Positions 1,496 through 30,233 of a DNA stretch of 64,000 nucleotides are shown here, one piece after another. The first letter of the stretch is position 1. Each line of letters opens with the position of its first letter. The translations under genes were made by a program, and so were the position numbers. The notes beneath the pieces are model-generated. The model had not been told where the DNA came from, did no database searches, and saw nothing but the letters and a program-made list of their open reading frames with translations. The DNA lies in assembly GCA_028714535.1 (NCBI GenBank), contig JAQTME010000002.1:1-64000 (forward strand), read 5' to 3'. The stretch is from Candidatus Iainarchaeum sp. (lineage in GTDB: Archaea > Micrarchaeota > Micrarchaeia > Anstonellales > Bilamarchaeaceae).

Positions 1496-3946
1496 CTACC
1501 ATTTCCGCTGCTCTGCCAGCGCGTAGGCGTAATGCTTGACCCATTCGGTGATGAAGAAGAACATCACAGTCCAGCCCCAGAGGAACAGGACCAGCCAGAA
1601 GCTTATGGGGGTCACGAAAACCCCCAGGAGCGCCATGCACGTGGCGAGCAGCTGGGTGCCAACAACGGCGCATAGCAGCGCCCTTGAAGGCGGAGTCCCT
1701 TTCAGGACCGGCCCTTTGTTGCGCGCGTGGAACAGCATCAGGTGGCCCGAGAGCGAGAGCTTGAGGAACAGGAAAGTCTGTATGACCTCTATGGAGAACC
1801 CGAGCACGAAAGATACCAGGCAGAGGAGTGTCGCGCTGCTGACAAGCCCGACCAATCCCAGTGCCGAAGAAACGCCCAGCAGGCGCTTGACCCGCCATCT
1901 CTCAGGATAGGTCGCATTGTTCACGTTGTCCGTGGCCATCGCCAGGATGGGGATATCGTTCAGCACCGAGAGCAGGACCAGCTGGAGCGGGGTGAGCGGG
2001 AAGAAGCCGAAGATGATTATCGCGAAGGGCACCAGGAACAGCACCCTGAACGTCTCGGCCAGGCGGTACGTCACGTAATGATACATGCGCTTGTAGATGG
2101 CCCGCCCCTCCGCTATGCCGTCCACGATGACCGATAATCCGGGGCGGGTCAGCACCAGGTCCGCCGCAGACCTGGCGACCTCGTTGGCGCCTGACACCGC
2201 GATGCCCACCGCCGCCCGCTTGAGCGCAGGGGCGTCGTTGACCCCGTCTCCGGTCACCGCTACGACCTGGCCGCCGGCCTGGAGGGCCTCGACGATCTCG
2301 AATTTCTGGGCGGGAATGACCTCGCTGAAGATGGTGGTCGCCCGTATCTTCATTGCGCCCGCGGTCCCTTTGAGGGCAGCGATGGCAGCGGAAGTCAGCT
2401 CAGTCCCCTTCATGCCGATGCGGGCGGCGATATTGCGTGCTGCTGCGGAATGGTCTCCGGTGACCATGCGGACCTGGACGCCCATCTCCCCGGCCCTCTT
2501 TATCGTCGCTGCGGCATCCTGGCGCGGCTGGTCTGAGAGGGCGATCAGCCCGAGCAGGGTGGCTCCGCTCTCATCAAGCGTTTTGAGCTGCATGTGGGGC
2601 CCGTCGATCTGTTCGGCTGTCATGCCCTTGACTGCGATTCCGAGACTGCGGAAACCCTGGCCGGCAAACCGCTCCATCTGGGAAAGTGCGGCATTTCTCG
2701 CCTTGGAATCGGCTTTGCAGAGTTCCAGTACCTTCTGCGGCGCACCCTTGATTGCCAGTTTGTAAGACTGTGTTTTCTCATTGTACAGGACCACGGTGGC
2801 CCGCTTACGGTCTCCGTCTGCGGGGATGTACCTGATGCGTTTCCATCCATCCAGCAGGCCAGGCGACTTTTGTGCGTAGCCGGAAATGGCCGCATCTATC
2901 GGATCGGAAGAACCTTCCGGCATGCAGGAGGCTGCAGAACTCACCAGGGTAGCTTCCGTGCAGTCGTGCGTCCAGACCGAGCCTACAGCCAACTTGTTCT
3001 CCGTGAGCGTGCCGGTTTTATCCGAGCATATGACCGTGACTCCTGAAAGCTCCTCCAACGAGCTGAGCTGGCGCACCACCACGCCTGCCTTGGCCAGGCG
3101 CATCGCGCCGACGGCCATTATGGTGGCCAGCACCGCGGGCATGGCCGCGGGGACCGAAGCCACCAGGAGGGTGAGGGCCAGCAGGGCGGTCTCACTAAGC
3201 GGATACTGCCGGGCCACCCCGACCGTGACCACTACTGCAGAGCCGATGACTGCCAGCACCACCAGATACTGGCCTATCTTGAGGGTTGATTTGTCCAGGC
3301 TGCCCATTGGCCGCTGGGCCTGGGCCAGCTGCGCAGTCCGCCCGAACGTGGTGTTTACGCCTATGAGCGCTACGATGCCCTGGGCATGGCCCCGCTGCAC
3401 CAGGGACGCGGCATATGTAAGCCCCCCGGCTCCGCAAGCCACCGGAAGGCTCTCCCCGGTGAGCGTGGACTGGTCCACTTCCACTTCCCCATCGATTATC
3501 TTGATGTCCGCGGGAACAACGTCGCCGCCATCCAATTCGACCAGGTCGCCAACGACGAGCTCCGCGGCAGGGCGGCGGCTCCAGAGGCCGTCCCGCCTGA
3601 CCCGCGCGGTGACCCCGATCTCCCGTGAAAGTTCGGCCAGCGCTCCGTCTGCCTTGCGTTCTATATAGATGCCTATGGCGCTGTTGAGCAGGTAAAGGAA
3701 GAGGATGACGACCGCATCCTCTACATTGCCGATCCACGCTGAGAGCAGCCCGGCAGCCAGCAGGACCAGGGAGATGGGGGCGATCAGATGCGCCAGGACC
3801 TTGCGCCAGAGGGGCGTGCGCTTCTCGGGGATGGAATTAGGGCCGTCCCGCAGCAGCCGTTCGCGTGCCTGCGCCCCGGTCAGGCCCTGCTCGGAGAAAG
3901 ATAGCGCGGTTTTGACTTCCTCCACCCCGGCTGTCTTGAAGTCCAT
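1496..3946 (-). CDS. P-type ATPase, plasma-membrane proton pump-like (P3A)
   Basis: DQSTLTGESLPV, CSDKTGTLTENKLAV, VTGDGVNDAPALKRAAVGIAVSGA; overall layout resembles P3A H+-ATPases. Confidence 0.85.
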   Translation of the reverse strand: MDFKTAGVEEVKTALSFSEQGLTGAQARERLLRDGPNSIPEKRTPLWRKVLAHLIAPISLVLLAAGLLSAWIGNVEDAVVILFLYLLNSAIGIYIERKADGALAELSREIGVTARVRRDGLWSRRPAAELVVGDLVELDGGDVVPADIKIIDGEVEVDQSTLTGESLPVACGAGGLTYAASLVQRGHAQGIVALIGVNTTFGRTAQLAQAQRPMGSLDKSTLKIGQYLVVLAVIGSAVVVTVGVARQYPLSETALLALTLLVASVPAAMPAVLATIMAVGAMRLAKAGVVVRQLSSLEELSGVTVICSDKTGTLTENKLAVGSVWTHDCTEATLVSSAASCMPEGSSDPIDAAISGYAQKSPGLLDGWKRIRYIPADGDRKRATVVLYNEKTQSYKLAIKGAPQKVLELCKADSKARNAALSQMERFAGQGFRSLGIAVKGMTAEQIDGPHMQLKTLDESGATLLGLIALSDQPRQDAAATIKRAGEMGVQVRMVTGDHSAAARNIAARIGMKGTELTSAAIAALKGTAGAMKIRATTIFSEVIPAQKFEIVEALQAGGQVVAVTGDGVNDAPALKRAAVGIAVSGANEVARSAADLVLTRPGLSVIVDGIAEGRAIYKRMYHYVTYRLAETFRVLFLVPFAIIIFGFFPLTPLQLVLLSVLNDIPILAMATDNVNNATYPERWRVKRLLGVSSALGLVGLVSSATLLCLVSFVLGFSIEVIQTFLFLKLSLSGHLMLFHARNKGPVLKGTPPSRALLCAVVGTQLLATCMALLGVFVTPISFWLVLFLWGWTVMFFFITEWVKHYAYALAEQRKW

Positions 3947-27129: not shown

Positions 27130-28566
27130 TCATGCCGTTTCCGGCCCTGCCTTCTCGCTTTTCACTCCGTGGTCTGCGGCCTCGGTCGCCCACCAGTTGC
27201 CGTACCTTTCCTTGAGCTTCTCCTCTATGCTCCTGGACTCGTGTATGGCGTGGACCACGTCCTTCTTCTCTATGCGCCCCTTCTTCTCCATGGCGGCCAC
27301 GTCGCCTGCCATCTTTATTATGCCGGTGAGGTTGCGCAGCCTGAGCGTCAGGCCCTTGGCGTTGTCGATGCGCCGGGCGATGTTGCGCGCCTCGTCTATG
27401 ATGAGCATCGCGGCCGCGTATTCCGCGTGCGGTATCTTGCCGTCCTTGGTTATCTCCTGCGCCAGGAACTGGAAGAGCTTCTTCTCGTTCTGGGGCACGT
27501 CGTCCATGTAGGCGTTCATCAGAACCTCGTAGCCGTCGCCGCGTATCCTTGAGCGCAGGGGCGGAGTGATGTGCTTCATGTCGTTTATGTTGGTCGCGCC
27601 GACGAATATGAAGTCGCAGGGCACGCCGTCCACGCGGACCGCGGCACCGCTGCTCATGGGATTACGGCCGACGATGGGGAATGCCTTGTCCTGCATGGCT
27701 GTGAGTATGTAGCGCTGGATGTTGCCGAGCGTGGACAGCTCGTCGATGAAAAGCACTCCTTCGTGCGCCTCGTGCACCGCGCCGGGCACCACGCGCTGGT
27801 AGGCCGCGGTCCCGAGGTGGTGGTGGCCGCCGTATGGGTCGTGCCGTATGTCGCCCAGCAGCTCGGTTTCCGTCCCGCCGCTCGCCTGGACGAACGTGGA
27901 GCGCTTGAGCGGCACGATGACCTTGCGCTTGGACTTCTTGCCCATCTCCTCGATCTTCTTTATCTCGTCCTGGGTCAGCATGAGTATCTTGCCGTCTGTC
28001 GTGCGCTCGTAGATTATGACCTCGTCCTTGCCGTTCGGGTGCCGCCTCGTCGTCGCGATGCGTATCCGCTCGCCTTCCTGCGGCATCTGCGCCGGCATGC
28101 CATAGCGCTCGAAGAGGTTGCCGCCCTGGGTCTTGTTCGCGCCGCACTGCGGGCATATCACGTCCGTGAACGGGCTCAGCGCGGCGCACCTCCTGCACCT
28201 GAAGCCGAGCCGCTCCGCGACGAAGGAGGGGACGTCCAGCGGCGTCACTTCAATCCCTATCTTCTTCTCCTCGCCCTTGTCCTTCCTTATCTGGGCCTCG
28301 GCCCGTATCTCCACGATCGGCCTTTCCGCTATCTCAGGGTTGTCGAGGACCGAGACCTCGAACCTGGGGGCGGGCAGCACAGTGGATATGGCCTGGGCGA
28401 TCATGCTCTTTCCGGTGCCTGGCGGGCCGACTAGAAGCAGGTGCCTGCGCTGGTGCGGGACCATGCGCGCTATCCTCACTGCCTCGTCCTGGCCTATGAT
28501 GCGCTCGAACGGGTCCCTGGGTATGGGTATGTCTTTAGTATCGTCAAAACCAGATGATTTCGCCAT
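27130..28566 (-). CDS. LonB-like AAA+ ATPase with Zn-ribbon insert, lacking a Lon protease domain
   Basis: IGQDEAVRIARMVPHQRRHLLLVGPPGTGKSMIAQAIS; CRRCAALSPFTDVICPQCG insert; GVLFIDELSTL; ORF ends before any serine-lysine protease domain. Confidence 0.8.
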   Translation of the reverse strand: MAKSSGFDDTKDIPIPRDPFERIIGQDEAVRIARMVPHQRRHLLLVGPPGTGKSMIAQAISTVLPAPRFEVSVLDNPEIAERPIVEIRAEAQIRKDKGEEKKIGIEVTPLDVPSFVAERLGFRCRRCAALSPFTDVICPQCGANKTQGGNLFERYGMPAQMPQEGERIRIATTRRHPNGKDEVIIYERTTDGKILMLTQDEIKKIEEMGKKSKRKVIVPLKRSTFVQASGGTETELLGDIRHDPYGGHHHLGTAAYQRVVPGAVHEAHEGVLFIDELSTLGNIQRYILTAMQDKAFPIVGRNPMSSGAAVRVDGVPCDFIFVGATNINDMKHITPPLRSRIRGDGYEVLMNAYMDDVPQNEKKLFQFLAQEITKDGKIPHAEYAAAMLIIDEARNIARRIDNAKGLTLRLRNLTGIIKMAGDVAAMEKKGRIEKKDVVHAIHESRSIEEKLKERYGNWWATEAADHGVKSEKAGPETA

Positions 28567-28641
28567 GGGAATATTTCTCAATGCCTATATTTAAATGACG
28601 CCGGATGCCCTGGCCCTCCATCTTCAACAACAAAATCCTGC

Positions 28642-28858
28642 CGTGAGCCGGCAAGCAGGGCCCAGTGGCGCTCACACCGGCACCTGCAAAGGCGCCGGTG
28701 CCGCCACCGGGAAACTGTAACCAGTACGTTATGCCGGTTGGCTTGCACCTGGCGGTGTTCGCTCCGACAACTGTTTTTCAGACGCCGTACTGGCAGTGAG
28801 TTTTACCTGAGGGCCCGGATTTCCGGAACCCCGCAGGCGGTGTGTTTTTCTTTTTCTA
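28642..28858. ncRNA. Candidate structured ncRNA region (orientation uncertain, + favoured by T-rich end)
   Basis: CACCGGCACC/GGCGCCGGTG and CCAGTACG/CGTACTGG inverted repeats, CCGGATTTCCGG, then a T-rich tract at 28843-28856; no convincing ORF. Confidence 0.35.
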
Positions 28859-28870
28859 AGATAGCAACTT

Positions 28871-28932
28871 GGGAACGGACCAAAGGATGAGATGAGAGGC
28901 GGGAGTCTGATCCGTTCCCAGTCTTGCCATCA
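28871..28932. repeat. Structured repeat copy R1
   Basis: GGGAACGGA...AATGAGATGA-like core GATGAGATGAGAGGCGGGAGTC...TCCGTTCCCAGTCTTGCCATCA; near-identical to R2. Confidence 0.75.
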
Positions 28933-29012
28933 GCGTGAGAAGAAACTTGCCCCAAGCCCTGGTCGGGGCCCGAGGCGTTTCTTGCTTTTTTGCTTACGTT
29001 GGGAGGATAACA

Positions 29013-29034
29013 AGTCGTGGCCGGCGAACCGGCC
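29013..29034. repeat. Perfect hairpin TCGTGGCCGG-CGAA-CCGGCCACGA-type inverted repeat
   Basis: CGTGGCCGG CGAA CCGGCCACG. Confidence 0.75.
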
Positions 29035-29038
29035 ACGA

Positions 29039-29058
29039 TTGGCGAACAAGTTCGCCAA
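29039..29058. repeat. Perfect 9-bp hairpin TTGGCGAAC-AA-GTTCGCCAA
   Basis: Direct reading of the inverted repeat. Confidence 0.75.
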
Positions 29059-29061
29059 GTC

Positions 29062-29122
29062 GGTAACGGACCAAATAATGAGATGAGAGGCGGGAGTCGG
29101 CCCGTTACCAGCCTTGCCATCA
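29062..29122. repeat. Structured repeat copy R2
   Basis: GGTAACGG...AATGAGATGAGAGGCGGGAGTC...CCGTTACCAGCCTTGCCATCA; stem carries G-C to T-A compensatory change relative to R1. Confidence 0.75.
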
Positions 29123-29157: not shown

Positions 29158-29619
29158 TTATTCCGGAAAGAAGTAAACCTTCTTCCCCGCCTGCTGCTTC
29201 TGCAGCAGGCCCATGTCGCAGAGGCGGTTCAGCCTCGCGCACGCGGCGTTTTTGCCCTTGTAGTTGAATTTCGCACGGATGTCCTCGGCCGTGCACCTGC
29301 CTTTTTCGTGGACGAACGCCATGATCTGCTCGTCTACTTCGGGCAGTATGGGCGCCGCGGCCGGTGCAACTGGCATTCCTTTGGCTTCGAGGGCGTCGAG
29401 TTTGGCTAGTATGTTCTTGAGCAGGCGGTTCGTGTTCTCCCGTTCCTCAAGGAGCCGGTAGACCAGCTCCCCCAGGACTATGGGGTCCTTGAACTTCGCC
29501 ATGTTCGTTTGGAGGTCGTTTTGGATTTCGTGTGCGAGTGTGCTGTCAACAGGTTTATATTCTTTGTTGTCCATTGAATCACCACGTTGGTTTGGTATGC
29601 AAGGTTGCGATGAAATCAC
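29158..29619 (-). CDS. Putative winged-helix DNA-binding protein
   Basis: C-term CTAEDIRAKFNYKGKNAACARLNRLCDMGLLQKQQAGKKVYFF resembles wHTH. Confidence 0.6.
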   Translation of the reverse strand: MISSQPCIPNQRGDSMDNKEYKPVDSTLAHEIQNDLQTNMAKFKDPIVLGELVYRLLEERENTNRLLKNILAKLDALEAKGMPVAPAAAPILPEVDEQIMAFVHEKGRCTAEDIRAKFNYKGKNAACARLNRLCDMGLLQKQQAGKKVYFFPE

Positions 29620-29684
29620 GCAACTGTCATGATGTAATCATGATATATTTTTAAACCTATCGTTCCTCCGCTACGGGTGCCCAC

Positions 29685-30233
29685 GTGAAACCACTCAAAG
29701 AGCTCGCATCCTCTGTACTCCTAGCGTTCCGCAAGCACAATCAGCGCCGCCTCAGGAAGCTGAACGACGACATACTCGTGGAAGCGGCCATGAACTTCAC
29801 GCCGGTCTATTTCAACATGGCCATATTCTCCTACGTCCTGGCGAAAATCGTCTCCAAGCCCAGGTTCCTGGGCAGGGACTACGAGGCAGCGCTCCACGAA
29901 ATAGAGAACGCGCTCCAGGCCGTCTCCGACACGATCGACACGGCCACACATGAAGAGTCGCTGGCGGCCTTCTCTGTGCTGGAGAAATCAATAGCATCGC
30001 TGGAGCAGCGCGACCCGCGCTTCGTGGTCGACCTGGTCACAAAGGGGAAATTGAAGATGGCAGCGACGCTCTACGCCCAGGGCATGAGCCTCGGCGTGGC
30101 GTCGGACATGACTGGCATGGAGAAGCAGGAGATACTCGACTATGCCGGAGAGACGATGATGTTCGACCGCATGAAGGAGGAGAAGCCGATAGCCGAGCGG
30201 ATGAAATTCGCGAGGAAGCTCATAGAGGAATGA
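29685..30233 (+). CDS. Conserved hypothetical helical protein
   Basis: ORF immediately upstream of and co-directional with the PIN-like gene. Confidence 0.6.
   Translation: MKPLKELASSVLLAFRKHNQRRLRKLNDDILVEAAMNFTPVYFNMAIFSYVLAKIVSKPRFLGRDYEAALHEIENALQAVSDTIDTATHEESLAAFSVLEKSIASLEQRDPRFVVDLVTKGKLKMAATLYAQGMSLGVASDMTGMEKQEILDYAGETMMFDRMKEEKPIAERMKFARKLIEE

Follow-up and report, generated by a model that had tools for sequence, protein, structure and literature searches.

The closest described parallels to the RNA reported here are bacterial. In the cuckoo/alpha-r14 RNAs of the Alphaproteobacteria an anti-Shine-Dalgarno (anti-SD) motif, CCUCCUCCC, is ultraconserved and lies in unpaired regions, and the stems differ (PMC10746234); the related CcsR1-4 RNAs are co-transcribed behind ccaF1, made from its 3'UTR and released by RNase E (PMC10253847; PMC8625941). 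In Staphylococcus aureus, a C-rich anti-SD motif, UCCCCUG, is found in the 3'UTR of the mRNA of icaR, a transcriptional repressor gene, where it acts against the SD (PMC3868564), and the UCCC-motif sRNAs of Staphylococcus are cited in the same article as pairing rapidly with SD regions through their UCCCC motifs. The locus described here is archaeal and lies in a stretch of 64,000 nt from Candidatus Iainarchaeum sp. (contig JAQTME010000002.1, positions 1 to 64,000; hereafter the window), in which a gene on the minus strand, encoding a winged helix-turn-helix (wHTH) protein, carries a structured RNA module twice in tandem in its 3'UTR. The RNA family was previously uncatalogued and is without an Rfam match: neither the window locus nor 11 relative loci gave a match to Rfam 15 at gathering score, and the best match below threshold had an E-value of 0.68 or worse. 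Small-genome archaea have few known regulatory RNAs; none of comparable spread is known there, and a literature search gave none. A covarying RNA with a loop resembling the tail of 16S rRNA, together with a protein that has a near-unique dyad, makes a compact and testable circuit, and one that apparently converges with the bacterial design of anti-SD RNAs.

As in the cuckoo/alpha-r14 RNAs, the archaeal copies are hairpins in which a constant C-rich anti-SD motif is unpaired and the stems diverge, and as with CcsR1-4 they stand in tandem behind a gene for a small protein, with which they would be co-transcribed. However, the loop reads ACCUCCCGCC or UCACCUCCCAC, its motif being CCUCCC(G/A)C where the cuckoo RNAs have CCUCCUCCC; the upstream gene is not a DUF1127 gene of the CcaF1 type but codes for a wHTH protein that has a near-unique dyad of its own; and the host is an archaeon rather than an alphaproteobacterium, with no sign of homology between the RNAs. 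Given a different motif, a different host gene and the lack of visible homology, we have not filed the RNA as a cuckoo RNA; by analogy, it may work like one. The icaR mRNA, which comes from a repressor gene, resembles it in having a C-rich anti-SD motif within the 3'UTR, but differs in that the archaeal element consists of structured, covarying, tandem hairpins of phylum-scale range and displays no specificity for its own 5'UTR (65 loci, a weak test given that the SDs are alike). The Staphylococcus UCCC-motif sRNAs, unlike the archaeal RNA, are bacterial and have no link to a wHTH gene. When the RNA was compared with C/D box RNAs (RUGAUGA and CUGA), its 5' box was found to read UGAUGGC and inspection revealed no consistent D box.

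The preliminary description placed two copies of a structured repeat, R1 and R2, at 28871-28932 and 29062-29122, and both the coordinates and the sequences were confirmed; the copies are 88-90% identical and their starts lie 191 nt apart. The shared core that it pointed out is real, the 19-nt ATGAGATGAGAGGCGGGAG occurring twice in the window with up to three mismatches allowed against 0.03 occurrences expected by shuffling, as is the compensated swap in the stem (GGGAACGG/CCGTTCCC versus GGTAACGG/CCGTTACC). The proposal of an RNA structure also stood, but the strand implied by the motif was wrong. Plus-strand folding of R1 and R2 was no better than that of shuffled sequences (z -0.2 and -0.5), and a plus-strand RNA was rejected on this ground, whereas minus-strand folding was unusually strong (z -2.6 and -2.7) because the stem extends via G-U pairs to about 14 bp. 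Each minus-strand copy is thus a hairpin of about 14 bp with an identical 20-nt loop, ACUCCCGCCUCUCAUCUCAU. Most of what was described as the core is hairpin loop, and the tail, CAG(T/C)CTTGCCATCA, is to be read on the minus strand as a 5' box, TGATGGCAAG(A/G)CTG. The unit is also larger than R1 and R2, taking in a tail, extra hairpins and the upstream wHTH gene. When the genome itself was searched with a 71-nt DNA query, the only two strong copies were those at this locus; the genome also has one weak candidate elsewhere, which shares the loop word. An exact-pattern scan of genome contigs yielded a single chance match, in Paenibacillus.

All features of the locus lie on the minus strand. Directly after the stop codon of the 138-aa wHTH gene (29158..29574) comes the module 1 hairpin, which corresponds to R2 (29056..29122; TGATGGCAAGGC-stem-loop-stem-ACTTG; covariance model (CM) score 72.5 bits, fold z -2.67) and whose loop, ACTCCCGCCTCTCATCTCAT (29078..29097), is the same as that of module 2 though the stems differ. 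It is followed by two extra hairpins, both perfect inverted repeats, TTGGCGAACTTGTTCGCCAA (29039..29058) and CGTGGCCGGTTCGCCGGCCACG (29016..29037), each with an equivalent in the relatives L040 and L041, that of the former in the same place. These two hairpins precede the tail of module 1, CTTGTTATCCTCCCA (29000..29014), which carries a second CCUCCC motif and is near-invariant in first modules of the genus. Next is a second hairpin (28940..28983; -27.4 kcal/mol) with the loop CGACCA and the family pattern ...TGACCAGGG..., the loop and position of which recur in most genus loci, several of them with a T-run after it. The module 2 hairpin, corresponding to R1 (28865..28932; CM score 73.5 bits, fold z -2.56; loop ACTCCCGCCTCTCATCTCAT at 28887..28906), is without the CCUCCC tail and the second hairpin. 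Beyond it, the region 28600-28860 between the RNA and an AAA gene is GC-rich and contains several inverted repeats, with no Rfam match.

With the same 71-nt query, relatives were detected in the majority of the genus genomes. All genus copies lie directly after the stop codon of one 138-aa winged-helix gene, on the same strand, as one to three tandem copies; G005 has three or more, and the hairpins of two of these are identical. The order of the genus module is TGATGGCAAGGC, 5' arm, loop ACCTCCCGCCTCTC, 3' arm, ACTTGTTATCCTCCCA and a second hairpin with the loop TGACCA, often with a T-run after it at the end of the set, and several relatives have a second copy that is reduced like module 2 of the window. 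The loop ACCUCCCGCC and the tail UUAUCCUCCCA are near-constant in the genus, and the stems vary. We analysed covariation in 22 hairpins from 17 loci over 12 stem pairs, those inside the outer CAAG/CUUG stem. Stem changes without compensation in homologues had been named as the observation that would speak against a selected RNA structure; instead, all 12 pairs showed compensatory change, each having changed on both sides in one case or more. Of the stem cells, 90% were paired as against 30-51% when partners were slid by one to three columns, and none of 500 shuffles equalled the real hairpins in percentage paired or in covariation score. RNAalifold independently found nine of the 12 pairs. The sense strand is fixed by the G-U pairs found in around 20 stem cells, where the opposite strand would have A-C mismatches.

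A covariance-model search of relatives, as had been proposed at the outset, was run against 43 genomes of the family, and matches with E<1e-3 adjoined the 3' side of the wHTH gene: on contigs with that gene all of them lay just 3' of it, in one to three copies. The exception was G005, with a further match on a second contig that begins inside the same repeat array; a match in G029 (E 0.0014) was on a contig without a detected wHTH gene. In the window's own genome a weak match (E 0.006) was noted at L202 (G000:C6:59660-59717, minus strand), between two minus-strand genes, where the same 14-nt loop word, ACTCCCGCCTCTCA, sits in a different, strong stem. This hairpin may be a paralogue acting in trans, although given the many genomes searched the match is not conclusive. 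A 13-nt loop word showed no excess of other sites across 17 genomes (two outside the locus versus three for a reversed control), and long antisense targets were rejected as being at chance level by this measure. At L183 (G010:C32, near 3609-3621), TGAGAGAGGCGGGAGGT lies upstream of an ORF and is complementary to the RNA loop of that genome, but since the 13-nt word is at chance across the genus we treat this target candidate as a lead only.

The wHTH protein is predicted to have a long N-terminal helix and a C-terminal winged helix (AF2 pLDDT 85); it matches Pfam family PF03965, Penicillinase_R, with an E-value of 1.9e-5, just above the cut-off, and wHTH repressors are among its best PDB matches. 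The promoter of its gene is arranged as TTTAAAAATATA, the dyad TCATGAN5TCATGA and a leader inverted repeat. In the window, these are a TATA-box region, GATAGGTTTAAAAATATA (29644..29661), kept in relatives; the operator-like dyad, TCATGATTACATCATGA (29627..29643); and the inverted repeat, GTTGCGTGATTTCATCGCAAC (29604..29624), followed by an SD-like GGTGAT before the ATG and conserved in most f1 relatives. This last repeat might serve as an additional operator or form a hairpin in the mRNA. Counted as full sites, so that half sites elsewhere are not excluded, the dyad is present exactly once per genome in 16 of 17 genus genomes, always at the wHTH promoter, and the wHTH gene was likewise not found in the remaining genome; in the order, 44 of 59 genomes have a match, 42 of these exactly one. 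With the dyad occurring about once per genome and at this promoter, the locus resembles a dedicated autoregulator combined with an RNA. The protein probably binds DNA and regulates itself, and would do so through the dyad.

The RNA module is conserved across one order and several other families, and is kept over much of one archaeal phylum. A homologue of the wHTH gene was found in 131 of 144 relatives and in 114 of the 117 phylum genomes sampled, all in one class; a small-genome archaeal phylum sampled in a single class would fit Micrarchaeota or a related DPANN group. We tested 79 loci from families other than f14 and f18, taken without thinning by relatedness, for the motif ACCTCC or CTCCC(G/A)C within 330 nt behind the stop codon. 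It was present in 67/79 on the sense strand and 3/79 on the antisense strand, compared with 43/395 (11%) in shuffled sequences and 11/80 in a coding control; the corresponding figures for a motif within a hairpin were 53/79, 0/79, 5/395 (1%) and 4/80. These sense and antisense counts are the test, and the motif-anchored alignment profile serves as illustration and not as proof because the motif anchors the alignment by construction. In the order and in neighbouring families, most of the genomes sampled have a related hairpin with the loop ACCUCC/CUCCC(A/G)C behind the wHTH gene. Several further families of this order and class have the loop (ATA)ATTCACCTCCCAC, with GCAAGGCGACCA ahead of the hairpin. 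A CCCACC variant occurs in some families, f8 seems to be without the motif, and f14 and f18 have only a short GC-rich hairpin, with the loop UCCCC(C)AA in f18.

The loop resembles the anti-SD end of 16S rRNA, GAUCACCUCC, which suggests that the RNA tunes protein synthesis. The 16S rRNA of the window's own genome was not found in its assembly; in genus, order and class genomes for which the 3' end was recovered it reads GATAGATCACCTCC, or GTTAGATCACCTCC in one. Loops at the order level read ATAATTCACCTCCCAC and have TCACCTCC plus flanking bases in common with the 16S end, and the genus loop matches only the ACCUCC (ACCTCC) part of the anti-SD. No complement of GGCGACC was found in three 16S loci that would allow the 5' box to pair with 16S rRNA. 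In the window, anti-SD pairing below -5 kcal/mol was found upstream of 41% of first ATGs versus 25% of internal ATGs, so SD sites are present, though not everywhere. By these crude gene calls SD use is only moderate; the count is based on hexamer-scored genes, as shadow ORFs make a longest-ORF estimate unreliable.

The mechanism that we favour as the most likely, tentatively and at somewhat short of an even chance, is that an RNA derived from the 3'UTR of the probably autoregulated wHTH gene acts in trans on SD regions. The wHTH protein would bind the dyad and control the operon, and the RNA would be transcribed from the wHTH promoter, since gaps of down to about 10 nt between stop codon and RNA leave no room for another. 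The RNA, or processed pieces of it, would be released from the 3'UTR with its ACCUCCC loops and UCCUCCC tail displayed, and these would pair with G-rich SD regions in other mRNAs, which would then be translated less; having the module in tandem would increase the dosage. A further step, in which the RNA would be the main output of the locus and the one-site wHTH protein would set the dose of a phylum-scale translation regulator in DPANN-type archaea, we consider doubtful. Action in trans is favoured by the covariation at all 12 pairs, the place of the copies just 3' of the wHTH gene, the sense-strand enrichment of the motif, the recovered 16S ends, the single full dyad per genome, the enrichment of SD-like pairing before first ATGs and the likeness to the cuckoo/alpha-r14 and CcsR1-4 RNAs. 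Against it stand the 13-nt loop word with no excess of other sites, the only moderate SD use and the match of the genus loop to no more than ACCUCC. Strict linkage to one gene also counts against action in trans, being equally expected of a cis element. Indeed, this linkage, the apparent autoregulation of the wHTH gene and the icaR precedent, in which UCCCCUG in the 3'UTR is directed against the SD (PMC3868564), would all suit feedback in cis, the anti-SD loop pairing with the SD of its own mRNA to repress the wHTH protein. Yet the SD of the genus, GGTGA(T), matches the loop only in part, and pairing of the loop with its own 5'UTR (-10.47 kcal/mol) equalled that with swapped 5'UTRs (-10.46 kcal/mol) at 65 loci, so that no cis specificity is visible, in what is a weak test because SDs are generic. 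We regard cis feedback as unlikely.

Trans action on SD regions has also to be weighed against three further readings. The hairpins could merely terminate or protect the wHTH mRNA, as the T-runs that directly follow the final hairpin of several loci in the genus, reminiscent of intrinsic terminators, and the short GC-rich hairpin that is all f14 and f18 have there might suggest; but no T-run follows R1 in the window, and a terminator needs neither a constant single-stranded loop nor a constant second CCUCCC tail nor tandem copies, which makes this a rather improbable account. The resemblance of order-level loops (ATAATTCACCTCC) to the 16S tail (ATAGATCACCTCC), flanking bases included, would fit a decoy for the 16S 3' end, to which a factor of rRNA maturation or of translation, or some other RNA-binding protein, would bind; the genus loop, however, retains ACCUCC only, and we think this quite improbable. 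The preliminary description had left room for a paired DNA palindrome, and two inverted-repeat copies within one intergenic region could be taken for a palindrome or a mobile repeat (REP, integron attC or MITE). Against this, strong copies occur only beside one gene per genome, always 3' of it, their orientation is fixed (by the sense and antisense counts above) and G-U covariation favours one strand, so that RNA is the part of the original alternative that survives and a DNA element is very improbable.

The genes flanking the locus were also noted. In the window and in several relatives the RNA is followed by an AAA ATPase gene, at 27130-28581 on the minus strand of the window; its product matches archaeal LonB (TIGR00764) with 345 bits, below the cut-off of 517, the best stretch covering profile positions 146-402 of 608 with no match to the protease part. 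On the other side, at 29685-30233 on the plus strand, lies a divergent gene of unknown family, and several relatives (L064 and L129 among them) apparently have a gene for a similar protein next to that for the wHTH protein.
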